Assembly (NCBI GenBank): GCA_947589675.1
Contig: CANQCI010000014.1
Coordinates: 1-40,905, forward strand
Direction: 5' to 3'
Length of the DNA: 40,905 nucleotides
Source of the DNA: an uncultured Bacilli bacterium
Lineage (GTDB): Bacteria > Bacillota_I > Bacilli_A > RF39 > UBA660
Under the pieces are notes generated by a model. The model made no database searches. It saw only the letters and a program-made list of their open reading frames with translations, and was not told the origin of the DNA. Position 1 is the first letter of the stretch, and every line of letters starts with the position of its first letter. A program made the position numbers and the translations under genes. Below are positions 6,397 to 19,777 of the stretch, one piece after another.

Positions 6397-7089
6397 ATGA
6401 ATAATAGTTTTAATAAAGAAAGTGATTCTTTATTATCAATTATATCTGATGAAGATACTAATTTTTTTAATGATTTTAAGAAAGGTTTCTCTAGTCTAAA
6501 TGATGTTTATTATGAAAATGGTATTTTAACTTTTCCCATGGGTTCTCTAACTATTGATGAATATACATTAAAAAATATCTTACCTAGTACTTTTACCATG
6601 GCTCCTAATGATATATATATTTATTTAAAACATAAATATTATTTAGCCAAAGGAACAGATATCGAAGATATCTTTAATTTATTTCCCCAATTAGTGATAA
6701 CTAATGATGAAGAACAACGTTTAAAAGATTTTACTCTTGATTATTGGGAAAGATTAAATTTATATAACAGGGAACAACCTATTTTAGAAAATGATGGAGT
6801 CTTTATGCGGGAACTTCACCAAAGACAAAAAGTTATCGCTGAAAGTTATCAACGTCCCCTTATGGCGGCTAATATTATTGCCTCAACTTATGCTAACAAA
6901 GTTAATGAAGAAATGAATAATCAAGCTCCTGAAAAAGGCAATAATATGGTCAAGACTTTAAGTAAACCTGGTGTTTCCCAAGAAGAAATTGATGAAGCTT
7001 TAGGTATCGGTGGTTTTGCGGCGGTTCTAATAATCATTGGCATCACTTTAGCGGTTGGACTTTACATTGGTGTTCGTTTAATGACTTAA
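6397..7089 (+). CDS. Tail-anchored hypothetical membrane protein
   Basis: I do not recognise the family. The 230-residue protein has a soluble N-terminal part of about 200 residues, rich in acidic residues and tyrosine, then one hydrophobic segment at the very C terminus (about 206-229, GFAAVLIIIGITLAVGLYIG) ending in RLMT. With no signal peptide it should be tail-anchored with the bulk in the cytoplasm. A good promoter, a strong ribosome binding site (AGGAGTAGG) and a terminator make it a complete single-gene unit. It is divergent from sufB. Confidence 0.75.
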   Translation: MNNSFNKESDSLLSIISDEDTNFFNDFKKGFSSLNDVYYENGILTFPMGSLTIDEYTLKNILPSTFTMAPNDIYIYLKHKYYLAKGTDIEDIFNLFPQLVITNDEEQRLKDFTLDYWERLNLYNREQPILENDGVFMRELHQRQKVIAESYQRPLMAANIIASTYANKVNEEMNNQAPEKGNNMVKTLSKPGVSQEEIDEALGIGGFAAVLIIIGITLAVGLYIGVRLMT

Positions 7090-7651: not shown

Positions 7652-7679
7652 AAAAAAAGAAGAAGTAATCCCTCTTCTT
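7652..7679 (-). terminator. Terminator of the surface-protein operon
   Basis: On the minus strand AAGAAG / CTTCTT with an 8-base loop, followed by C and seven T. The arm includes most of the stop codon of the last gene. Confidence 0.7.
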
Positions 7680-9411
7680 AATATATTTTCGCTTGATAAT
7701 TTAACTTAGCTCGAACACTAACTCCATCATCTTCTCTAATAACTTCTACATTATCCACAATAGTTAAATAATTCTTTCTTAAATATTTATCAACTATATT
7801 CTTAACATTAATAAATAATCCTTGAATTTGAGCATCTGTTGCCTCAGGATTAGCCCTCACAAACTCTGTTACATCCATAGTAATAGACACGCCAATCATT
7901 TTCTTACTAGAAAACGATACATTATCAATTGATATATTTATCAATTTCTTTAAATCATCTACCGAATAATTATTTACTTGTAAATCTTCTATCTTAAAAT
8001 AATTTATTCCATTTAATCTATATACTTTTAAAGCAAAATATTTATTAACACTTTCATCTTTAATTATATAATATTTTTCATAATCACTTTGTTCACCAAA
8101 TACTTTACTATTTATTTCATTTAACAAAGTCCCATCATTAACAATCGTATTAACTAAATTATCACTTATTCTATCTCTATATATACTATTATTATTTCTA
8201 ATATTACTTATAGTCCCAACAAAGTCAGTCCCAAAATTAACATTTTGACTAGCTACAACCGGAACTTCCACACTAGAATTACTTGGTGTACTAGTAGATA
8301 TATTACTTTCTATACCTGGTACATCATCACCAATTGGGTCGCCTGCTGGAACATATGGAAAGCTTTCAATATACTCTAATAAATCTTTTAAATCGATGCG
8401 TCCAGATGAATGAAAGGTTATTCCTTCAAAATCACTTGGAATATTTTTTAAAACAAATTTAGCTATATCTATTTTTTTATTTGCCAAATACTCTGTTATC
8501 GTTCTTATTTCTTCTGGACTAAACATTAAAGCTAAATATTCATCAAATATAGTTTTTATTTTGGCTTCATTAGTAGTAGTAAAAAACATATCCTTATTTG
8601 CTAAATTATCACTATCTGATGTAAAAACATATCCTAGAAAATTATCATCAATAGAAAAAGTATAATTTAACGAGTCAGAACTCATTGTTATTCCTTTAAG
8701 AGGTGAAGTAAAATTACTACTAGAATAACCAGCAACATATTTTTCTACTAAATTAGTTATTTCACTATCTCGAAAACTAAATTTTTTACTTTTAGGTTGA
8801 CTAGTTACATATTTTTTTAATTTGTTCAAAAAAGTTTCAGAAGCTGAACCATCAATTGGTACAGTAAACGGATTTTCAATTATAGCTGGTATTTCTTCAT
8901 AAATACTTCGCCCAATTTGATAAATAAACTTTTGTTCTTTACCAATTTGTTCATATATTTTTATTTCAAAATTATATCCAGAGCCTGAATTACCATATTC
9001 CGCACTACTTGTGCTTGGACAACTCATTGATAGGTTAGACTTATTTTCATCTTTAGAAGTAAATTTAAAGATTTTACCATCACTTAGATTACCTGTTCCA
9101 TTATTTTCTAATGTACAATCTTTAGGAACAACTATTTCATATACATCATCACTAATTTCATCTACCACAGTATTTCTTTTAAATCCTAAAGTAAATTCAA
9201 AATTTCCGGTTTTACTTGCCTTATTTTCATCAAGTACAAAAGTTTCAACATCATTTTTATATAATGAAGTAAGAGTACTTTTAAATGTAAAAGCTGTTGG
9301 TACATTAGCAACATATTTTGCACTAGATACAGCAATGCTACATAAATTATTAATTCCCAAAGTAACCAATAATACCAAAATTGTAATTTTAATTTTTTTG
9401 TTTTTCTTCAT
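7678..9411 (-). CDS. Exported protein with SipW-type leader, 577 residues
   Basis: A predicted secreted protein, last gene of the seven-gene surface operon. It has a basic start (KKNKKIK), a hydrophobic stretch at 9-28 and the sequence SSAKYVANVPTAFTFKSTL, which resembles the leaders of its operon neighbours (TYAKY, TYSKY). That places the likely signal-peptidase site just before AKYVA. The rest is beta-rich without recognised domains. A proline-, serine- and threonine-rich linker (about 360-385) splits it into an N-terminal and a C-terminal half; the latter looks like a structural SEA- or pilin-like module (VDKYLRKNYLTIVDNVEVIRED), which I cannot assign. Start ATG after GAGGG, 10 bases past the previous stop. 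Confidence 0.72.
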   Translation of the reverse strand: MKKNKKIKITILVLLVTLGINNLCSIAVSSAKYVANVPTAFTFKSTLTSLYKNDVETFVLDENKASKTGNFEFTLGFKRNTVVDEISDDVYEIVVPKDCTLENNGTGNLSDGKIFKFTSKDENKSNLSMSCPSTSSAEYGNSGSGYNFEIKIYEQIGKEQKFIYQIGRSIYEEIPAIIENPFTVPIDGSASETFLNKLKKYVTSQPKSKKFSFRDSEITNLVEKYVAGYSSSNFTSPLKGITMSSDSLNYTFSIDDNFLGYVFTSDSDNLANKDMFFTTTNEAKIKTIFDEYLALMFSPEEIRTITEYLANKKIDIAKFVLKNIPSDFEGITFHSSGRIDLKDLLEYIESFPYVPAGDPIGDDVPGIESNISTSTPSNSSVEVPVVASQNVNFGTDFVGTISNIRNNNSIYRDRISDNLVNTIVNDGTLLNEINSKVFGEQSDYEKYYIIKDESVNKYFALKVYRLNGINYFKIEDLQVNNYSVDDLKKLINISIDNVSFSSKKMIGVSITMDVTEFVRANPEATDAQIQGLFINVKNIVDKYLRKNYLTIVDNVEVIREDDGVSVRAKLNYQAKIY

Positions 9412-9421
9412 ACTTCAACCC

Positions 9422-10021
9422 TCACTTTAACATTTGATTTGCAAGATAACCAACTGAAATTATATCATATACTTTTTTATTTTGAATTGACTGATAATCG
9501 GTTGGGTCACATGCTTCCCCATTTTTACTTTTCCAAAAACATGGGTCATAAACGACTGTTATCTTTAAAACTTTATTAAATTCTTCTCCCATTAGTTTTC
9601 GTGACTCTATACTAAAATCCAAATATTCGGTTGGCTGGCTTTTCCGAAACTCAATTTCATTACCTAAACCATCTACAATCTCACTTACTCTAAAACCATC
9701 ATTATAATTTACTGTGTATGATAAACTTAAATTGGTTAAAACCTCAAAGCTAGCATTAATATTAACTACAAAAGTTTTTGCTTCTGTAGGACGCCATTCA
9801 TCAATTACACAGGATTTATCAGTATCTTCGGCAATATCACAACCCTCAGGAACAACTTCAAGTTTAAATTTAGCAACTCGTGCTTCGCTAGTTCCGGATA
9901 TACTGGATACATACTTAGAATAGGTTACCACAGAAGTAAAAAGCATTAAAACTCCTACATACATACATAACCATTTATAGAGATTTTTTCTAAATTTTTT
10001 ACTATGCAATAATCCTTTCAT
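9422..10021 (-). CDS. Small exported protein with SipW-type leader, 199 residues
   Basis: Predicted exported fibre-type or accessory subunit. Residues 18-34 form the hydrophobic leader (WLCMYVGVLMLFTSVVT), followed by YSKYVSSISGTSEARVAKFKLEV. This is close to the leader and mature start of the TasA-like protein at 13909 (AKYTSTVNGTENTARVAKWGF), so the two are probably homologous at this end. The mature part is a beta-sandwich-like sequence of about 160 residues with four cysteines (CDIAEDTDKSC and CFWKSKNGEAC), possibly two disulfides. It lies 13 bases after the second signal peptidase gene, with GGGGAGG as ribosome binding site. Confidence 0.75.
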   Translation of the reverse strand: MKGLLHSKKFRKNLYKWLCMYVGVLMLFTSVVTYSKYVSSISGTSEARVAKFKLEVVPEGCDIAEDTDKSCVIDEWRPTEAKTFVVNINASFEVLTNLSLSYTVNYNDGFRVSEIVDGLGNEIEFRKSQPTEYLDFSIESRKLMGEEFNKVLKITVVYDPCFWKSKNGEACDPTDYQSIQNKKVYDIISVGYLANQMLK

Positions 10022-10034
10022 AAGACCTCCCCAA

Positions 10035-10658
10035 CTAACGTTTCTTCTTCTTTCTTTTCTTATTACTTTTCTTATCTTTATTTTCTTTACTATTATTTAT
10101 TACTTTTTCTTTCTCTTTATTATCTTTTTGTTCTAAATATTTTTTCTCTTCTTCATCTAGAACTAAATCATCTTTATCATCTAAACTCATTAAAACACAT
10201 ATTAATGTTCCAACGATGAATATTAATATACTAACAACTGGATTTTTCAAAGAAGATACAATAGTACCTAAACCATTTAACTTAAACATGTACCTCCCAA
10301 CTAAATTTTTAGTTGGGATAGGTTCATCTTCGGTATTATTGCTATCTCCCTTAGTAATCATTTGTTTAGGATTAATATCCACAATTCTGTGGGTTACAAA
10401 GGAACCATTCACATCATAAAATGTTACAATATCACCTTTCTTATAATCATAAACAATCGTATCTATTACAATTATATCACCAGCATTTATTGTTGGTTCC
10501 ATTGACCCAGTTGCCACTTGTAGTAAAGCATAACCATTTATAGTTGTTAAATCTTTTTTTAATATTTTTAAATTTACAAAATTATATAAATTAAACGCAA
10601 ATATTATTAATAAGATTGAAAAGACAAATATAAATATTATTTTCTTTACAATTTTCAT
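10035..10658 (-). CDS. SipW-type signal peptidase I (second copy)
   Basis: Membrane protease that removes signal peptides outside the cytoplasmic membrane. The catalytic serine is S52 in ATGSMEPTI. The general-base position is H90 (FVTHRIVDI) and not lysine, which is the mark of the SipW/archaeal/ER (S26B) branch. The GDSNNTED motif of the family follows near residue 105. Membrane segments are at about 6-27 and 141-160. The C-terminal 45 residues are a Lys/Glu/Asn-rich cytoplasmic tail. Its ATG overlaps the stop of the upstream gene (TAATG), so translation is probably coupled. Its neighbours downstream are two leaders of the SipW type, its likely substrates. Confidence 0.93.
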   Translation of the reverse strand: MKIVKKIIFIFVFSILLIIFAFNLYNFVNLKILKKDLTTINGYALLQVATGSMEPTINAGDIIVIDTIVYDYKKGDIVTFYDVNGSFVTHRIVDINPKQMITKGDSNNTEDEPIPTKNLVGRYMFKLNGLGTIVSSLKNPVVSILIFIVGTLICVLMSLDDKDDLVLDEEEKKYLEQKDNKEKEKVINNSKENKDKKSNKKRKKKKR

Positions 10659-13600
10659 TATTTAACACATTCGTCCTTTTCTACTTTAAAGTGAATACCT
10701 ACTCTTAAAGCATAAATAGTATCTTCTTTATTTTGATTAGCATATTGTCCAATCTTGGTATCTAGTTTATCATCAAGTTCAATCCATCGCCAGTTCAAAG
10801 TAATTTCTGTCTTTTCCCCTGGTTTTAACACAATACTTGGATTACCAACATTATAGTAATTAACTCGGTCATGATTTAATAATTCATAAATAGAGTCATC
10901 AGTACTATTTCCTGATTTACCTAAATAATAGTTATTATTATAATCTTTTATAACATAACCCATATTTAAACAACCCTCAGCAAAACAAACAGTTTTTGTT
11001 TCTTCTAAAGATAATCTATCAATAGTCATTTCTTTACCATAATTATTAGTTAATTCCATAGTGTAATAACCCTTAGCTCCTGGATAGATAATTTTATCTT
11101 TTCCATACTTTTGGAAGTATTCTTCATTATGGAATAAATCTACATCTGTTAAATACAATGTCTTTTCTTCCATAATTGGGTCATCTTCTGGTACATCACT
11201 ATAAACAGCATACAATGTTAAATCATCAGTAACATCAACTTTAGGATTTTCAGGAGTATATTTAACTTCCCCATCTGGTGTTTCACTAAAGCCTACTAAC
11301 TTATAGTATTTACAATCAATTTCTTTATAACCTTCAAAGTAATCAGTTAAATCAAATTCTCCATCTCTTACTTTAAAGTTCATTGTATCTGTAAATTCAT
11401 TAAAATATCCACCATTACCATCTAATGTTAAAGTATAATATTGTTTTACATGAACAGTTATATCAAATTCACTAACAACATCACCTTTATAGGAACCTCT
11501 AACATGGATATCAATATCACCCTCATAATCATCATCAACAGTAAGTCTTAATGATAAATCATCAGAACCACCTGTAAATTCTAAGTGAGCTTTAGGATTA
11601 TCCGTAGTTACATCAATGAAAATATCTGGATTATTTTCATCATATATTCTAAGTCCACCAGGTATTTCTTTAGCTTTAGCATGACCACTTGGGAAGAAAT
11701 CAGTATGAAGAACAAAATCACGACTTAACTTATCACCAGCAACATGTAAATCTAATTCTTTTTTATCAGTACTTACATAATGGTCTTTGCTATAAACATT
11801 AATTTGCGTATCAGTTACATAACCATCATAAGTTAATGTTAATTCATTAGTTGTTCCAACTAAGTCAGTTTCAGGTGTAACTGTAACGACATTCTTCTTC
11901 ATTTCGAAATTATAACTATCAATATCATTTAATTCTACTTCAATATCATCATAATCAAAATCACTTATGGCATGACCATCTTCATAAACAGTATAGATAA
12001 TATTATGTTTAGTTTGAGCTAAGAAAGTATATTCTAAATTATCAATCGCAATTGTTCTAATAACTCGATATACTTCAACATAATATGTTTTCTTATCGCC
12101 ACTTTCACTTTCGACAGTAATTTCAATATCATTAGCCCCTTGGTTAAGTGGTAGATTATTTAAATCTGTAACTACTTCATCATTATATTTATAAGTAACT
12201 TTAGATTTTCCATCATCAACAACAGCACCTAAAGTAAAGCTTTCTTGGTCAAATGGTACTCTAACATAATATTCTTCTATATAAGAATTAAACTTACTAA
12301 TTGTTTTATTATCTATTCTTAAATCTTTTAAATTATTATTAGTACTCTTTTCTACTTTAATATTTATGGTATATGTCCGAGTAGTGCCTCCGGCACTTTC
12401 GACAACAATTTCCACAATATTAGAGCCTAATGTTAAATCTAAATCTTCTAAGCTATTAACAACTTGACCTTTATACTTTAAGGTAACTTTAGCATCTTTA
12501 CTAGATAAATTATAATAAATACTTTCTTTAGTATATTCAGTACCTAGTTTAACTTCATAATCTAAAATATTTTTATTAAATCTAGGATTTAACTTTCCAT
12601 ACTTAACACTTAAACCGCTTAAAGAACTATCTTTAGATTTAGGCTTTTCAGCTCTATTAATTGTAACTTTATAAGTAGTTTTACTGCCATTTTCGGCTGT
12701 AACTTCAATAACTAATTCATTATTACCAACTTGTAATTCTAAATCTTCTAAAGAACTAACACTCTTAGCATTATATTTATAGGTAACTTTAGCTTTACTA
12801 CTACGAGCAACTGCATTAAGTGTTAATTTACTTTGGTCATTACTAAAGCCTAAATAGTATGAATAAGTATTACTTTTAAAATCAATAGTTCCTTTACTTG
12901 CTGTTAAACTCTTTAATAAACTATCATTACTCTTTTTATTAACACTAGTACTTTGTTTACTTGGTTTAGCACTTGAAGTGCCTCCAACAGGCTTAGTATT
13001 ACTTGACGTTCCCCCAGTACTTGTTCCCGTTCCCGTATTACTTGTACCTGTATTATTACTTGTACCAGTTTCACTATCAATAACAGTTATTTCATAATTA
13101 GCTGTATATTCTTTACCTTTATTAGTAACTGATAACACTACTTCCGTAGTACCAACAGCTTTACCTGTAATATTTAATACACCATCACTAGCTTTAGCAC
13201 TAGCTACTTTTTCATCTTTAACACTAACATTTACTGTACCATCAATATTTTCAAGTTCATAAGCAACATTTAAAACTTTAGTATCATTTAAATTAATTGT
13301 TCCCTTAGTTTTTGATAAAGTCAAACTAGCAACAGAACCTGTAATTGTAACTGATGCTTTAGCTTGATAAGTCTTACCATTTGACTTAGTTTCAAGGGTA
13401 ACATCAACTTTACCAGCTGTCTTAGCTTTAATAACTATATGTTCATCATCAACATAACAAGTAGCTATTTGAGCATCACTTGTATAACAAGTAAAAGTTT
13501 CGGGCATAATATTATAGTAGTAAAAACTTAATTTACCATCTTCATCACTTAATGCCATTTCCATTGTTTCAACATCAAAAATTAAGTCTTTATTTAATAC

Positions 13601-13807
13601 AATTTCTCCATCATTATTACTTGGTTCAGCACTATATTCACCACGATTAACAAATAAATCACCAATTTTACCCCAGAACTTAGAAGTACAACTTGTAATT
13701 AATAAAAGAATTATGATAATAATTATTATTACTTCAATAATTCGTTTAATTCTTTTCTTACGTTTTTCTTGTTCTTTGTCATTATCCTTTTCTTTTTTAT
13801 TATCCAT
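10658..13807 (-). CDS. Large Ig-like/cadherin-like surface protein
   Basis: A predicted membrane-anchored wall protein of 1049 residues. A basic N terminus and one hydrophobic segment (about 23-43) anchor it. Two bacterial Ig-like (BIG2) repeats follow, then a Ser/Thr/Gly/Asn-rich linker (about 250-290), three cadherin-like beta-sandwich repeats of about 90 residues (each beginning LKSLTASKGTIDF, LSGLSVKYGKLNP or LKDLRIDNKTIS and ending TTYKVTINR or equivalent), further beta domains, an InlB/Listeria-Bacteroides-type repeat (LTLDGNGGYFNEF ... LYAVY) and a C-terminal domain with DECVK. I chose the ATG at 13807 (AGGAGGG 6 bases upstream) over a start 45 bases earlier. No LPXTG sorting signal is present. 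Confidence 0.85.
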   Translation of the reverse strand: MDNKKEKDNDKEQEKRKKRIKRIIEVIIIIIIILLLITSCTSKFWGKIGDLFVNRGEYSAEPSNNDGEIVLNKDLIFDVETMEMALSDEDGKLSFYYYNIMPETFTCYTSDAQIATCYVDDEHIVIKAKTAGKVDVTLETKSNGKTYQAKASVTITGSVASLTLSKTKGTINLNDTKVLNVAYELENIDGTVNVSVKDEKVASAKASDGVLNITGKAVGTTEVVLSVTNKGKEYTANYEITVIDSETGTSNNTGTSNTGTGTSTGGTSSNTKPVGGTSSAKPSKQSTSVNKKSNDSLLKSLTASKGTIDFKSNTYSYYLGFSNDQSKLTLNAVARSSKAKVTYKYNAKSVSSLEDLELQVGNNELVIEVTAENGSKTTYKVTINRAEKPKSKDSSLSGLSVKYGKLNPRFNKNILDYEVKLGTEYTKESIYYNLSSKDAKVTLKYKGQVVNSLEDLDLTLGSNIVEIVVESAGGTTRTYTINIKVEKSTNNNLKDLRIDNKTISKFNSYIEEYYVRVPFDQESFTLGAVVDDGKSKVTYKYNDEVVTDLNNLPLNQGANDIEITVESESGDKKTYYVEVYRVIRTIAIDNLEYTFLAQTKHNIIYTVYEDGHAISDFDYDDIEVELNDIDSYNFEMKKNVVTVTPETDLVGTTNELTLTYDGYVTDTQINVYSKDHYVSTDKKELDLHVAGDKLSRDFVLHTDFFPSGHAKAKEIPGGLRIYDENNPDIFIDVTTDNPKAHLEFTGGSDDLSLRLTVDDDYEGDIDIHVRGSYKGDVVSEFDITVHVKQYYTLTLDGNGGYFNEFTDTMNFKVRDGEFDLTDYFEGYKEIDCKYYKLVGFSETPDGEVKYTPENPKVDVTDDLTLYAVYSDVPEDDPIMEEKTLYLTDVDLFHNEEYFQKYGKDKIIYPGAKGYYTMELTNNYGKEMTIDRLSLEETKTVCFAEGCLNMGYVIKDYNNNYYLGKSGNSTDDSIYELLNHDRVNYYNVGNPSIVLKPGEKTEITLNWRWIELDDKLDTKIGQYANQNKEDTIYALRVGIHFKVEKDECVK

Positions 13808-13837
13808 AATTCTCCCTCCTAAATAAAGTATTGAGCT

Positions 13838-13892
13838 TCCGAATAAACCCATAAAATGATTTATGGATTTATTTGGAAGTTAAATAACTTCC
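13838..13892. repeat. Overlapping hairpins between tasA-like gene and the 1049-residue gene
   Basis: Two inverted repeats overlap by three bases: an 18-bp imperfect stem (13838-13855 with 13860-13877, two mismatches, 4-base loop) and a perfect 8-bp stem GGAAGTTA / TAACTTCC (13875-13892, 2-base loop). No T-run follows on the transcribed strand. Likely an mRNA processing or stability structure that sets a high level of the upstream TasA-like mRNA relative to the downstream genes; this role is inferred. Confidence 0.6.
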
Positions 13893-13908
13893 ATAGCAAC
13901 ACTTACCA

Positions 13909-14634
13909 TTAGTTTTGTACTGGTAAAGTTTGTGTTGCTGTTAAATCAACTTTAAATGTTGCTTTTATTTCTGTTCCTTTTGATGCATTAGTACCTTTTT
14001 CAGTATCTGCACTATCGACATTACTATCTAAACCAGTTGTATCATCATATACCCATTCCCAATGAAGATATACTTTACCATCAGAAGATACTGGGACTGA
14101 TGGAGTTGAACCAGCTTCAACAGTAATAATACCTGCTTTATTAGTCATAGCACTTATAATTGCATCTTTTAAAGATGAATCTTGAGTACCATCAAAGTTA
14201 TCAATAGTATAAATGGTTTCAGAATCCTTTACAGCACTATAGGCTTCTTTATTATTATTTTGGTCATCAATCCAGAATTTTAATGATTTTGTACCATCAG
14301 TTAAAGAAACTGTTGGTGTAATATCATAATCAACTTCACTTTCACCAAAATTTTGTAATGCTGTTGATGTTAAGCTTAAGTCAATCATCCCACGAGTTCC
14401 TGGTGCGATTAAATTTTCGCCAGCTTTAACATGAGTGAATTTACCATTAGTATCAAATATATTATATTCAATGCTTGCACCACCATCAGAGTTAAATCCC
14501 CATTTAGCAACACGAGCTGTATTTTCAGTACCATTAACAGTACTTGTATATTTAGCATAAGTACCACTTACAGAGAAAGTAGTAATAGCTACACCAGCAA
14601 CTAAAGCCATAAGACCCATGAATTTCTTATTCAT
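13909..14634 (-). CDS. TasA/CalY-like fibre subunit
   Basis: Candidate major subunit of a secreted fibre. The 241-residue protein has a SipW-type leader (residues 1-27, MNKKFMGLMALVAGVAITTF ending SVSGTYA) and a mature start KYTSTVNGTENTARVAKWGF, in keeping with camelysin/TasA-family proteins that lose their leader to SipW. The mature part (about 210 residues) is beta-rich, with no cysteine, and ends in FKVDLTATQTLPVQN. The ribosome binding site is the strongest of the operon (AAAGGAGGTGA), and the gene is flanked by RNA hairpins on both sides, which suggests high expression. A signal peptidase gene is directly upstream. TasA identity rests on leader, size and context, not on an alignment. 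Confidence 0.8.
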   Translation of the reverse strand: MNKKFMGLMALVAGVAITTFSVSGTYAKYTSTVNGTENTARVAKWGFNSDGGASIEYNIFDTNGKFTHVKAGENLIAPGTRGMIDLSLTSTALQNFGESEVDYDITPTVSLTDGTKSLKFWIDDQNNNKEAYSAVKDSETIYTIDNFDGTQDSSLKDAIISAMTNKAGIITVEAGSTPSVPVSSDGKVYLHWEWVYDDTTGLDSNVDSADTEKGTNASKGTEIKATFKVDLTATQTLPVQN

Positions 14635-14677
14635 TATAGTTTCACCTCCTTTGTGAATATATTACATAATTTTTTAA

Positions 14678-14697
14678 ATGGGATTATGCCAACCCAT
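14678..14697 (-). repeat. Hairpin upstream of the TasA-like gene
   Basis: ATGGG / CCCAT with a 10-base loop, followed on the minus strand by TTAAAAAATT. The 100 bases between the first signal peptidase gene and the TasA-like gene also contain a second pairing (TAAAT...ATTTA around 14708-14726). Either weak termination or transcript stabilisation is possible. Confidence 0.4.
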
Positions 14698-14734
14698 GTA
14701 TATATGTAAATGCCCTAAGGCGATTTACCAAATT

Positions 14735-15475
14735 TTATTTAGTCTTTTTAGACTTACTATTATTTTTATTAGATGAAGAACTATTTTTTTTAACAGGTTC
14801 TTTTTTTATTTCTTCTTTTTCTTCTGTTTTATCTTCTTCATCTTTTTCTTTCTTCTTATTAGTTAATTCTTCATGCATTTTCTTATATTCCAAAAATTCT
14901 TCATGTTCTAATATTCTTTGTTTCTTAGTTGAAATTACAAATCCAATTATAAATATCATTGTAATTAATAATAATATTATAATTATAGTTGTTGGTTTTG
15001 CAAGAGTATCCATGATAGAACCAAAACCTGGAATACGCATGACATAAACTCCCTCAACTGAGTCTAGTGAAACTAAACTTTGGTCTTGAGTATTATTACT
15101 GTCCCCTTTAGTTATAAAGTAAGACTCACCTGTATCTTCAATAACTATATCAATAATTCGGTGGGTTGTTACTGTATTATCTTCATCACGGAAAGCTATA
15201 ATATCATTTACTTTTAAAGTTTCAGGTTCAACTATCTTAGTAATTATTAAATCCCCCTCATGAATAGCTGTTTCCATTGAACCAGACAATACGATAAATG
15301 GTTTATAACCAAAGATATCAGGAATTTTATCTTCATGTAATCTTGATTGTACCATTATCCAAATGTTCATTATTAGAATTGGCACTAAAATTATACAAGC
15401 TACAATTATTAACCAGTTACTTGGCGATTTATACCATTTTTTCTTTTCCTTATTATCAATTTCTTTTTTCGCCAT
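14735..15475 (-). CDS. sipW: SipW-type signal peptidase I (first copy)
   Basis: Membrane protease of the S26B branch, 246 residues. The catalytic Ser is S66 (VLSGSMETAI) and the histidine H105 (VTTHRIIDI) replaces the lysine of ordinary LepB; the family's KGDSNNTQD follows at 123-131. One membrane segment precedes the catalytic domain (about 21-43) and one follows (about 163-184). The last 55 residues are a highly charged Lys/Glu tail ending in a polybasic stretch. It overlaps the upstream gene by one base (TAATG). It sits directly before the TasA-like gene, the arrangement of sipW-tasA in Bacillus, so the TasA-like protein is the probable substrate. Confidence 0.93.
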   Translation of the reverse strand: MAKKEIDNKEKKKWYKSPSNWLIIVACIILVPILIMNIWIMVQSRLHEDKIPDIFGYKPFIVLSGSMETAIHEGDLIITKIVEPETLKVNDIIAFRDEDNTVTTHRIIDIVIEDTGESYFITKGDSNNTQDQSLVSLDSVEGVYVMRIPGFGSIMDTLAKPTTIIIILLLITMIFIIGFVISTKKQRILEHEEFLEYKKMHEELTNKKKEKDEEDKTEEKEEIKKEPVKKNSSSSNKNNSKSKKTK

Positions 15476-17784
15476 TATAATGCTCCATTTCTACTATCAT
15501 TTTTTCTAACTAATTTCCGACCGTATGAATTGGAGTCAGAAATTTGACTATTTTCTAAAGAAAATTGACTATAATTTTCAATATCAACCTTTTGACTAAA
15601 TACATCATTACGAATTTCATATTCGTTGTCTTCTTCCAAAGCTTGTGTCCAACTACACTTTGGTCGACTACATTTTTTTATTTTCTTCCATTTGACAACA
15701 ACAACTTCATGAGGAGTAATTTCTTCTCTTTGAACTTTATGACACACAGAACATTTATAAATAATTTTTTGACAACCCTCATCGCTATTCAAATAAATTA
15801 TATCTTCTTCTTTTTCATCACAACTATGATATGTTCTAGTTGCTGAGCAACCATCGTTTTGACATTCTTGATAATACTCACCACTTGGTAACTTTTTGCC
15901 AAAACTCCAATCATGAGCTCTGTTGACAGTTATTCCACAAACACATTCAATCGTTTCATTATTTTCATCGTAGCTTTCCACCGTATAAACATGCTTTGTA
16001 TCATGAGGTGTTACCACCTTAGCATCGCAATCTTTATCTTCACAATCTTGAACCCAATCATAATTTTGGTCAGCACCCGCCATATGAGGTTCCCCATATA
16101 AATGAACATGTTCTGTAATCCGTTTGCAATCACAATTAGGATTTAAACATTCTTCTACATAAATGTAACCACCATCACTAGTTCTTTCTAAATGTTTATT
16201 ACCAAATTTATGTTCTTTTCTAATAGTTTCGCCACAAGCACAAGCATATGTTTCCCCTGCATCATCATAGCCCATGAATGTAGAATAATCATGTTCATGC
16301 GTAGGTTCTTTAGTATAACTATAGCCACAACCATTATTTTGACAAGTATATTTAATACTTCCATCATCTAGGATATCTTCTTGTAAATTATGGGCAATAA
16401 CTTTATTATTACCACAAGAACAATCCCAATATTCATTTTCACTATCAGTACTATTTAATTTATATTCGTGAGTATGAACTTTTTCATAATTACAATAATC
16501 ATTTAAACATTCATATTTATAACCATTTTCATCAACAGTTTCTTTTATATTATGTTTATTAGTTAAAGTTTCCCCACAAGTACATGTAAAGTGTTCATAG
16601 GTATCATCATAACTACTTAACTTATAATCATGATGATGTTTTTCCGGAGTATTATGACTACCGGTATTACCACCATGGTTTGTTCCCGGAACACCTTGAC
16701 TTGGTGTACTAGGTGTACTTGGATTACTTGGAGTATTAGGATTACTTGGCTTACTTGGGTTTGTTGGTTTAGTTGGTTCCCCTGGTATATCTACACCCCA
16801 ATCACCCCGTTCATTAGGGTCAATAGCCCCTTGAGGGTCATCTTGCCCAGGAGCAACAGGTGCATCCCCAATAGATGCGGTCTTACTATAACCACAACCA
16901 TCATGTAAGCAAACATAAGTAACAGTCCCATCCCCATTAATATTTTTACCTATCACATGGGTCGTAACTAATTCATCACCACATACACACTTATGGACTT
17001 CATAAGTATCATCAAAAGAAATAATATCGCCATATTGATGTTCATGGTCTTTTTCTTCTTTATTCCCACATAGAGAACAAACAGCTTCATCTTTATTACT
17101 TGCTTCTTGATAAACACTATCCCCAAATTGACAAGCCTCAACAACATCATTTACTTTTTCATGTCCACATACCGTACATTCTAAAGTTTCTCTAATCGTA
17201 TGCGTACTATCACTATTAGCAATAATTTCTTTATTTACTTCCTTATATTCATGAAGTCTTGTTTCAACTTCCCCACAAACACAAGTTCTTTGTTCTACAT
17301 CATCAACATCAGCCCAAGCGGAAAACTCATGAACATGACTAACACTTGGTATATCTTCTTCTATTTTATTACTTACATTAATAGTATCTTTTTTATCATT
17401 ATTAACTGTTACATTACTAACTTCTTCTTTTATTACCTTATTAATATCTATTTCTTCTTGTCTAGAACTTACTTGTTGTTCTTCTTCCTTATTTATCTCA
17501 TTTTCTTCTATAATATCTTTAGTTTCTTCTTGTTGTAAATCACCTTCAATTATAAACAAATCTTCATTATTATGATTACTATGGCTACTATCCACTTCAT
17601 CACTATAAGAACTACCTCTATCAGGATTAACATTTGGCTTAGCAACATCATTAGCTTTCTTAATACCAAAGAAACCACCAATAGCGACAACACCAGTTAA
17701 GAAAAATGCGGCTACTCTTTGTTTAAGCCTTTTTCCATAACCAATTTTATTTTGTTTATTATCCTTTCGTTTTTTTATACTCAT
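15475..17784 (-). CDS. Cys/His-repeat surface protein, 769 residues
   Basis: First gene of the surface operon. A basic start and one hydrophobic segment (about 27-43, AFFLTGVVAIGGFFGIK) anchor it in the membrane. An acidic Glu/Asn/Ser region (45-150) leads to a series of short modules with the pattern HxHxY..(D)..Y..C-x-C-G-(E/N)....H.., often followed by ECxNxxC. Two or three modules precede a Pro/Asn/Thr/Ser-rich linker (about 305-370) and about six follow it. The Cys and His are spaced as in treble-clef or rubredoxin-like metal sites, so metal binding or disulfide-stapled mini-domains are the two options; I do not recognise a described family. ATG chosen at 17784, eight bases after GGGGAG; a TTG three bases earlier is possible. 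Confidence 0.8.
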   Translation of the reverse strand: MSIKKRKDNKQNKIGYGKRLKQRVAAFFLTGVVAIGGFFGIKKANDVAKPNVNPDRGSSYSDEVDSSHSNHNNEDLFIIEGDLQQEETKDIIEENEINKEEEQQVSSRQEEIDINKVIKEEVSNVTVNNDKKDTINVSNKIEEDIPSVSHVHEFSAWADVDDVEQRTCVCGEVETRLHEYKEVNKEIIANSDSTHTIRETLECTVCGHEKVNDVVEACQFGDSVYQEASNKDEAVCSLCGNKEEKDHEHQYGDIISFDDTYEVHKCVCGDELVTTHVIGKNINGDGTVTYVCLHDGCGYSKTASIGDAPVAPGQDDPQGAIDPNERGDWGVDIPGEPTKPTNPSKPSNPNTPSNPSTPSTPSQGVPGTNHGGNTGSHNTPEKHHHDYKLSSYDDTYEHFTCTCGETLTNKHNIKETVDENGYKYECLNDYCNYEKVHTHEYKLNSTDSENEYWDCSCGNNKVIAHNLQEDILDDGSIKYTCQNNGCGYSYTKEPTHEHDYSTFMGYDDAGETYACACGETIRKEHKFGNKHLERTSDGGYIYVEECLNPNCDCKRITEHVHLYGEPHMAGADQNYDWVQDCEDKDCDAKVVTPHDTKHVYTVESYDENNETIECVCGITVNRAHDWSFGKKLPSGEYYQECQNDGCSATRTYHSCDEKEEDIIYLNSDEGCQKIIYKCSVCHKVQREEITPHEVVVVKWKKIKKCSRPKCSWTQALEEDNEYEIRNDVFSQKVDIENYSQFSLENSQISDSNSYGRKLVRKNDSRNGAL

Positions 17785-17841
17785 CAATATTTCTCCCCTT
17801 TACATTTAAACCAAAACTCAATTAATGACTTGTACAAATTT

Positions 17842-17870
17842 ATTGTAATAGATTTGCCCTAAAAATTCAA
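17842..17870 (-). promoter_or_regulatory. Promoter of the surface-protein operon
   Basis: On the minus strand TTGAAT (17865-17870), 17 bp, TACAAT (17842-17847). It lies about 55 bases before the first gene of the seven-gene operon; no other promoter of comparable quality was seen within it. Confidence 0.6.
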
Positions 17871-17941: not shown

Positions 17942-18041
17942 AGTGAGTGAGTAGTTCGCTGATATCCTAGAGGGTATAAGTAAATTATACCAGCAAGCTT
18001 GCCTTGTGGGTTCCTTTAGTCAGGGGAAAGCTCACTTTTTT
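17942..18041 (+). ncRNA. Unassigned structured small RNA, about 100 nt
   Basis: An RNA gene bounded by a consensus promoter and an eight-T terminator tail. The two ends pair (AGTGAG with CTCACT, plus a G-U pair). Inside, GCTG pairs with CAGC around a perfect 7-bp hairpin GGTATAA/TTATACC with a GTAAA loop, and TTCCT pairs with GGGAA in a 3' hairpin. There is no open reading frame of note. It is convergent with der and divergent from the surface operon. It does not contain the SRP RNA apical motif and is too short for 6S RNA, so I cannot name the family. Confidence 0.65.
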
Positions 18042-19360: not shown

Positions 19361-19777
19361 CTAATTATTACTTATTTTATCTTTAATAACGGCATAAACC
19401 CGATTATTCTTCCGATATATTTGGGCTGTATCATTAAACATCGATTTTTTAGTAACGTTATTAGTAAATAACTTATTTCCAACACTATCTGTTTCTTCGG
19501 AATATAAGTATTGATTATCTAATAATTCTTTAACTGTTACGACTTTACAATTACTATAATTTTGCCCCGAAACAACACAAGTTTCCGTTAAAACATTAGG
19601 ATTAGATTGCCCATAGTCAATTGCGGCATGTCTTATTTCTTCATACTTAGCTTCTAACAATTTTTCATCTGATGAAGCACTAATCCCCATATAAGCATTA
19701 AAACTTAAAGTCATAATAACTCCCAGTAATACTAAAACCGCTAATAACTCCACTAAAGTAAATCCCTTTTTATTCAC
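19361..19777 (-). CDS. Type IV pilin-like pseudopilin
   Basis: A 138-residue protein with a prepilin leader: MNKKG/FTLVELLAVLVLLG. The cut before Phe and the glutamate at position +5 of the mature protein are the hallmarks of prepilin peptidase substrates. The hydrophobic helix runs to about residue 30, followed by a globular domain with two cysteines (ETCVVSGQNYSNC), which could form a disulfide. The start codon is GTG, with AAGGAG inside the last codons of engB and a 2-base gap to its stop. No other type IV pilus or competence gene is in the window, so prepilin peptidase and assembly ATPase must be elsewhere if it is processed. Confidence 0.88.
   Translation of the reverse strand: MNKKGFTLVELLAVLVLLGVIMTLSFNAYMGISASSDEKLLEAKYEEIRHAAIDYGQSNPNVLTETCVVSGQNYSNCKVVTVKELLDNQYLYSEETDSVGNKLFTNNVTKKSMFNDTAQIYRKNNRVYAVIKDKISNN

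Follow-up and report, generated by a model that had tools for sequence, protein, structure and literature searches.

A conserved seven-gene operon of an uncultured Bacilli bacterium appears, from its genes and their relatives, to build a TasA-like surface fibre. The operon lies in a window of 40,905 nucleotides, the whole stretch of DNA that was analysed. We assign a probability of about 0.6 to the reading that it encodes a cell-attached, probably donor-strand-assembled fibre in which proteins g3 to g7 have the roles proposed below. Most of what is known of TasA-type fibres comes from Bacillus, in which their hold on the cell is unsettled; the operon offers a conserved, testable answer on attachment in small-genome, uncultured gut Bacilli. 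Its features are as follows.

15475 to 17784, minus strand: g1, Cys/His-repeat protein of 769 aa with an N-terminal membrane anchor (36 Cys, 35 His)
14735 to 15475, minus strand: g2, upstream S26B (SipW-like) signal peptidase, 246 aa, S66/H105
13909 to 14634, minus strand: g3, candidate fibre subunit (pilin), exported, leader GTYA↓KY
13836 to 13892, minus strand: RNA element in the g3-g4 gap; hairpin H1 (13875 to 13892, GGAAGTT..AACTTCC) overlaps the longer H2 (13836 to 13879)
10658 to 13807, minus strand: g4, candidate fibre base, 1049 aa
10718 to 11149, minus strand: C-terminal pilin-like domain of g4 (about aa 885 to 1021; extent taken from the g3 profile match)
10035 to 10658, minus strand: g5, downstream S26B (SipW-like) signal peptidase, 207 aa, S52/H90
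9422 to 10021, minus strand: g6, candidate minor exported subunit, 199 aa, leader TYS↓KY
7678 to 9411, minus strand: g7, large exported protein and tip candidate, 577 aa, leader SSA↓KY

Operon layout, distribution and RNA element

All seven open reading frames were present on the minus strand, spanning positions 7678 to 17784, with an ATG at 17784 as the start codon of the first gene. The intergenic gaps from g1 to g7 are, in order, -1, 100, 101, -1, 13 and 10 nt, which makes a single transcription unit plausible. A promoter scan gave sites at chance level only, and therefore no promoter is claimed. A first-pass annotation of this DNA had described a seven-gene surface operon with two S26B-type peptidases, a Cys/His-repeat protein first and a 1049-residue Ig/cadherin protein between two peptidase-substrate sets. 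Each of these elements was recovered: both peptidases exceed the TIGR02228 cut-off, g1 has the Cys and His content listed above, and g4 is 1049 aa long when counted from the ATG at 13807 (1064 in the open reading frame list). In most loci that extend far enough a gene like g1 stands first; its product has a hydrophobic stretch at the N-terminus, repeats of the CxxC/CxCG type and, in most cases, a basic, LVRK-like tail at the C-terminus. No LPXTG-type sorting signal was found at the C-termini of g1, g3, g4, g6 and g7, and the operon genes include no sortase; the operon proteins do not qualify as a sortase-assembled pilus.

The seven-type gene order is also found in about nine further genera of the family to which the source bacterium belongs (genomes G097, G085, G083, G091, G064, G010, G079, G050 and G425, with parts on further contigs) and is also present in rabbit-gut MAG loci. 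A shorter form of the operon occurs in other families of class Bacilli and in loci labelled Clostridia and Erysipelotrichaceae. Gene order is thus kept across genera, as the first-pass annotation had proposed to check, and among the sampled loci peptidase genes were not found unlinked from the exported genes. The operon is not fixed in the source genus, as it is missing after der in three congeners; G097 has der on one contig and the operon on another. A search of viral contigs gave no relative, and an open frame of 24,217 aa with a TasA-like N-terminus in G178 was rejected as a masked run of N.

The gene for the main subunit candidate is marked by a conserved, covarying structured RNA in the g3-g4 gap. 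Its folding z is -4.5 here and averages -6.3 across 21 loci, both sides had changed in 7 of 18 pairs (0 of 500 shuffles were as high), and a covariance model of the element, run on 98 genomes, gave matches at g3-g4 junctions only. A probable role of the hairpin pair is to shield the g3 message or set it apart, which would give an excess of the subunit. It is possible, if rather doubtful, that the hairpin is instead a transcription terminator or attenuator: a predicted terminator after bsaA in Clostridium perfringens results in a short sipW-bsaA mRNA and a long one produced by read-through (PMC7395162), and the overlap of H1 and H2 is attenuator-like. However, the stem has no U-run 3' of it and the element is absent from the calls of the terminator scan, and in clostridia 3' stem-loops are documented to set stoichiometry through stability (PMC4423207, PMC8219983), consistent with an mRNA processing or stabilising element.

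The candidate subunit and its anchored relative

In an alignment of 23 g3 homologues (A1), G24, T25, A27, Y29, A43 and W45 were invariant. The TasA leader ends GTWA↓AF, and that of g3 ends GTYA↓KY. The g3 leader is of the SipW type, with a hydrophobic stretch, a small residue at -1 and an aromatic residue at +2, and by analogy with the A27↓A28 site of TasA the mature protein would start at K28. The invariant Y29 of g3 lies at the place matching F29 of TasA, a donor-strand interface residue (PMC9674648).

The TasA-like nature proposed for the g3 product is supported only indirectly. PF12389 (TasA/camelysin) matched neither g3 nor its homologues, nor anything else in the genome itself, and no TasA sequence match was obtained; the g3 leader, on the other hand, resembles camelysin leaders. 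Full-length, the g3 profile reached 95% probability against camelysins, nearly all of it from the leader, and direct profile comparison of the two cores gave about 2%. The anchored-domain family described below links the two, at 76 to 93% to camelysins and 98% to g3. Neither the g3 nor the g6 profile matched PDB sequences up to E 1. Structure prediction, suggested along with the first-pass annotation, gave a poor AlphaFold model for g3 itself (eight sequences, pLDDT 44), and its viral jelly roll matches (Z ~5) were disregarded. A compact g3 homologue yielded a model of modest confidence (pLDDT 57.5, core 70 to 83), which resembles donor-strand-exchange pilins, the best structural matches being CsuA/B, the Csu pilus, EcpA, FimG and Ena fibres, with a best Z of 8.4, a level that the tool rates ambiguous. 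TasA was not among the matches listed for this model, which is no evidence against TasA. On the main reading, g3 is probably the repeating subunit of a fibre that is probably donor-strand-assembled.

The g4 protein begins with a lipobox-like or transmembrane segment (LLLITSC; pattern used, [LVI][ASTVI][GAS]C after a hydrophobic stretch). The Cys of LITSC is invariant among 12 homologues and LspA is present in the genome; the N-region is long and charged. Three Cadherin-like domains follow (PF12733, E 2.9e-26), and stalk length is very variable in the source family (678 to 1523 aa). Shorter versions consist of a membrane anchor and the pilin-like domain, lack the lipobox and look like plain signal anchors. 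The g3 profile matches the C-terminus of g4 (E 1.1e-8), and it independently picks up g4 C-termini across eight genomes as well as the short anchored proteins, with matches that nearly always start past the leader/donor part. Profile-profile comparison of the g4 domain with g3 gave 91 to 96% probability. When leaders were cut off, the g3 core kept a probability of 98% against the short anchors and 95% against the g4 domain. The domain is homologous to the g3 pilin, without leader and without donor strand. This fits the 'dedicated anchor' that had been supposed for the fibre, and g4 is probably, on sequence grounds, the fibre base.

An acceptor domain without a donor strand could also serve a chaperone. 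On this unlikely alternative, g4 would be an assembly chaperone or nucleator whose domain holds g3 until polymerisation, like TapA or CapP, the TasA-fibre accessories that act in this way (PMC10151520, PMC13082335), and the fibre would be released into the matrix. However, the membrane anchor and variable-length Cadherin-like stalk fit a wall-spanning base better, and TapA donates a strand, whereas g4 has none to give.

Two signal peptidases and two leader classes

Both peptidases score well above the TIGR02228 (S26B) cut-off of 51.85 bits (g5, 90.5; g2, 87.5). With NF046067, the Bacillus SipW equivalog, scores were 70.7 and 102.2 bits, under the curated cut-off of 190, and the two are therefore called SipW-like and not SipW equivalogs. 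The Ser/His dyads previously called, S66/H105 and S52/H90, were confirmed, the catalytic Ser and His columns being invariant in 35 aligned S26B copies. In the S26B tree one branch, of weak support (57/83), parts all upstream (n = 31) from all downstream (n = 29) copies, g2 grouping with every other upstream copy and g5 with every other downstream copy; the position label changes once, versus 20.4 times when shuffled.

Leaders fall into two classes that run parallel to these groups. Beside the upstream peptidase the leader reads GT[YFW]A↓[KR]Y, with Ala at -1 in 29 of 29 and Gly at -4 in 28 of 29. The remaining operon leaders have Gly at -4 in 0 of 48, Ala at -1 in 11 of 48 and mostly Ser at -1; [KR][YF] at +1/+2 is common in both classes. 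N-termini of the leader type were found in 78 of 133 non-peptidase genes within these operons and in 3 of 300 outside; two of these three are true operon tip genes. Chance is excluded as the source of the leader match because of this enrichment and the recurrence of gene order across genera. The two peptidase-substrate sets suggested earlier are thus borne out by separate S26B groups, two leader classes and fixed adjacency; which peptidase cuts which leader we infer from these.

That one S26B is mainly regulatory or redundant, with a single peptidase processing all leaders, seems improbable. The SipW of Bacillus subtilis has been described as bifunctional (PMC13082335), the +1/+2 residues are common to both classes, and some loci (L086, L087) have a single S26B adjoining a pilin gene; however, both copies keep the dyad in all 35 aligned sequences, and the parallel between leader classes and S26B groups counts against this reading.

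The leader pattern TYAKY/TYSKY/SAKY noted at first pass reads as described, with a looser fit for g7 than for the other two, and g3 and g6 do share the mature start (A)RVAK(W/F). TYS.Y and Cys61 were invariant in 11 g6 homologues (A2). The g3 profile matches g6 (E 5.2e-6) mostly over the leader/donor region, and the g6 core compared with g3 without leaders gave a weak probability of about 12%, so that the case for g6 as a TasA-fold protein is weak. Twelve positional g7 homologues (A3) share about 20% identity; g7 resembles g3 in its leader only, and the idea that it is a related fibre protein beyond the leader found no support in the core comparison.

Proposed fibre and known systems

We propose that Sec exports g3 and that g2 cuts it after GTYA, and that the new N-terminus (KYTS...ARVAKW) would act as a donor strand completing the next subunit, like TasA residues 28-38. 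Held in the membrane, with its Cadherin-like domains across the wall, g4 would form the base; its pilin-like domain, lacking a donor strand, would therefore accept only, so the first g3 subunit would dock there. g6 and g7, each a leader and donor segment on a diverged body, would serve as minor/adaptor and tip proteins; their maturation would fall to g5, their leader class differing from that of g3. The base would thus accept, subunits donate and accept, and tips donate only, and each of the two leader classes would have its own peptidase; the many genomes offer natural variants on which peptidase specificity and fibre polarity could be tested. That the exported proteins are monomeric or loosely attached adhesins sharing a SipW-type export route would suit models of low to modest confidence, but is unlikely given that TasA, CalY and BsaA, known S26B-linked exported proteins, polymerise, that the segment just after the cut site is conserved, that an acceptor-type domain stands alone on a separate protein, and that the placing of a hairpin behind a single gene points to unequal stoichiometry.

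The operon is of the TasA/camelysin-SipW kind; compared with the simple sipW-tasA pair of biofilms it is a multi-part form, with two peptidases, a candidate anchored base and an RNA hairpin, and we found no description of such a form. More tentatively, it may represent a separate class of donor-strand fibre in Gram-positive bacteria. Two peptidases of non-overlapping leader specificity would sort subunits from minor and tip proteins, an acceptor-only anchored base, on which the fibre grows, would give a polarity the reverse of that of the TapA-initiated TasA fibre, and a dedicated RNA element would set subunit excess.

In tapA-sipW-tasA of B. subtilis, an S26B gene likewise adjoins a subunit with a 27-residue leader, with an accessory protein alongside; here, in contrast, there are two S26B genes, no TapA homologue was seen, an anchored acceptor-type pilin domain replaces the strand donor, and PF12389 does not match g3. 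The sipW-tasA/capP/calY region of Bacillus cereus also encodes several SipW-processed, sortase-independent exported proteins, but with one SipW, in separate transcription units, and with no membrane-anchored pilin-domain protein described. The sipW-bsaABCRSD operon of C. perfringens resembles the present one in having a SipW, a secreted protein that polymerises, other exported proteins and, behind the gene for the main subunit, a terminator-like element; that locus has one SipW and a two-component system, and neither a second S26B nor a pilin-domain anchor has been described. Subunits of Csu/type 1 chaperone-usher pili and Ena endospore appendages come nearest to the modest-confidence compact-homologue model, whereas the present operon has S26B-type leaders and no usher or periplasmic chaperone. 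In the archaeal thread (Saci_0406/Saci_0405), Sec-exported subunits form a fibre by donor strands and a one-sided relative acts as the cap (PMC9715654), much as proposed here; its cap donates a strand and has no acceptor, and g4 appears to be the reverse.

Operon make-up and recurrence

The window is one contig of a 1.46-Mb metagenome-assembled genome (MAG), whose closest named relatives found were MAGs from rabbit gut, labelled as uncultured Bacilli or Tenericutes.

Operon features in transcription order
17784 to 7678, minus strand: seven-gene operon (gaps -1, 100, 101, -1, 13, 10 nt)
15475-17784, minus strand: g1, Cys/His-repeat protein
Gene 2, minus strand: g2, S26B (SipW-type) peptidase
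Gene 3, minus strand: g3, exported protein, 241 aa
Gene 4, minus strand: g4, Cadherin-like protein, 1049 aa
Gene 5, minus strand: g5, S26B peptidase
Gene 6, minus strand: g6, exported protein, 199 aa
Gene 7, minus strand: g7, exported protein, 577 aa

Among 98 genomes sampled from the family, direct g3 matches were found in 16 and g3-profile matches in 33, and gene order was read from loci fetched around g3 matches. Co-occurrence of these genes in related genomes, raised in the first-pass annotation, was borne out: the order upstream S26B, g3, g4, downstream S26B, g6, g7 was kept in nine genomes (G097, G085, G083, G091, G064, G010, G079, G050, and G425) and in rabbit-gut loci L027-L029, with contig-end fragments in further genomes. 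A shorter form, comprising upstream S26B, pilin, a 190-280-aa membrane-anchored protein, and downstream S26B plus minor exported proteins and a large terminal protein, was present in G019, G022, G025, and family f5 of the same class, and also in loci with Clostridia (L030, L031) or Erysipelotrichaceae (L032) labels. Simpler or partial two-peptidase forms occurred in four families of the class (f7, f16, f18, f21). The operon was absent at this site from congeners G382, G448, and G045, and G097 has der on a different contig from the operon; the module is thus patchy among relatives, and moves or is lost.

Cys-rich CxxC/CxCG repeats were kept in the first operon gene (window, L025, L026, L028, L029, L035, L036, L038, L043, L089), and its product mostly ends in a basic tail such as LVRK. 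The pilin gene was found in tandem near-identical copies at L027:1096-2592 and L040:9893-11417. A 24,217-aa open frame (G178:C9:15662 onward, L153) was rejected as a giant gene: past a pilin-like start, it consists of masked N. Three features flank the operon:

17946-18041, plus strand (opposite to the operon): DUF3800-VII RNA (RF02967, 66.8 bits), between g1 and der
19361-19777, minus strand: type IV pilin-like gene with an N_methyl motif, flanked by engB and der; three congeners have it at this site too, as does G097 in more diverged form
6397-7089, plus strand (opposite to the operon), past its 3' end: 230-aa protein that matches no Pfam family and has a membrane segment at its C-terminus

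Two peptidase groups and two leader classes

Both g2 and g5 scored above the TIGR02228 cut-off and below that of the Bacillus SipW equivalog; two more S26B genes lie elsewhere in the genome. On a tree of 62 S26B sequences, all upstream copies (31/31) fell on one side and all downstream copies (29/29) on the other, with one change of label versus 20.4 in shuffles; the dividing branch had modest support (57/83; 61% of bootstrap trees).

Leader-type N-termini were carried by 78 of 133 non-peptidase operon genes versus 3 of 300 neighbours. As judged from sequence, the operon leaders form two classes. In the gene flanked by the upstream peptidase and the anchor, the leader read GT[YFW]A|[KR]Y; position -1 was Ala in 29/29 and position -4 was Gly in 28/29, versus Gly at -4 in 0/48 and Ser at -1 in 37/48 of the remaining leader-bearing genes (Fisher P, 4e-20 and 2e-12, for related and hence not independent sequences). 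The putative cut (|) was placed by analogy with TasA, in which residues 28-38 form the donor strand (PMC9674648). The two peptidase-substrate sets proposed earlier are thus upheld as separate S26B groups and leader classes, while adjacency and the parallels between them suggest that each peptidase cuts the products of its adjoining genes. Separately, at L034:8644-10252 (G000:C18), an S26B peptidase of 354 aa, whose N-terminal part is long and polytopic, directly follows a gene for a 163-aa exported beta-rich protein (leader ..AVGYSLFASD), perhaps another such pair.

The g3 pilin candidate and g4 as a putative base

The TasA-like reading of the first-pass annotation gained indirect support. Profile search did not place g3 in the TasA/camelysin family (no PF12389 match), and no PDB sequence matched it. 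On profile comparison, the g3 leader matched camelysin leaders and its core had no direct match to the camelysin core, the two being bridged by an anchored-domain family. The predicted model of g3 itself was poor; that of a compact homologue from L032 was modest (pLDDT 57.5, core strands 70-83), and its best structural matches were strand-exchange pilins, led by CsuA/B (Z 8.4, 2.9 A over 98 residues), with the Csu pilus, EcpA, FimG, and Ena fibres. Viral jelly rolls came next at Z 6-7, and a Z of 8 is not decisive. Collectively, leader, bridging family, and homologue model make it reasonable that g3 works like TasA but do not establish that it is TasA. Both leader and donor segment were kept in g6, whose core was weakly like that of g3 (12% probability), and g7 shared the leader alone.

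Within its genome, the g3 profile matched only g3, the g4 C-terminus, and g6. The hydrophobic g4 N-terminus ends LLLITSC, with the Cys invariant in 12 homologues; LspA is encoded in the genome. Three Cadherin-like domains were found in g4, and in eight genomes the g3 profile picked up its type of C-terminal domain. At other loci, short anchored proteins combine a membrane segment with the same pilin-like domain. Leaders removed, the g3 core matched these anchors at 98% and the g4 domain at 95% probability. In almost all, the match began past the leader and ARVAKW segment (model position at least 55 of 219; exceptions, L038 and L049). A pilin-type domain without a donor segment suggests that g4 may provide the acceptor at the fibre root.

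The g3-g4 hairpin and comparison with known systems

Folding of the g3-g4 gap was stronger than in shuffled sequence at all 21 loci examined (mean z, -6.3). Seven pairs of an 18-bp stem had changed on both sides; its covariation score was 0.272 versus 0.144 in shuffles (0/500 as high), a signal destroyed by sliding partners. A smaller upstream hairpin, GGAAGTT..AACTTCC, has bases in common with the stem, so the two are mutually exclusive. A covariance model matched in 12 of 98 genomes searched; each match lay immediately 3' of a g3-type gene or was the same hairpin read on the opposite strand, and some were at sites outside the training set (G053, two in G025). No Rfam family matched at gathering score. 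In clostridia, 3' stem-loops set subunit stoichiometry via mRNA stability (PMC4423207, PMC8219983), and Clostridium perfringens bsaA has a predicted terminator at the same position, after the subunit gene (PMC7395162); here, no U-run follows the stem and a terminator scan of the window made no call there. Either device would give g3 in excess.

Neither two SipW-type peptidases in one operon nor a pilin-domain anchor was found described in the open-access literature, of which our search was incomplete, so novelty is provisional. In published TasA models the first strand is donated by TapA (PMC10151520, PMC9674648), whereas the g4 domain would accept one, which would reverse fibre polarity. The operon is classed here as a variant of the SipW-TasA/camelysin kind, set apart by its two SipW-type peptidases and pilin-domain anchor.
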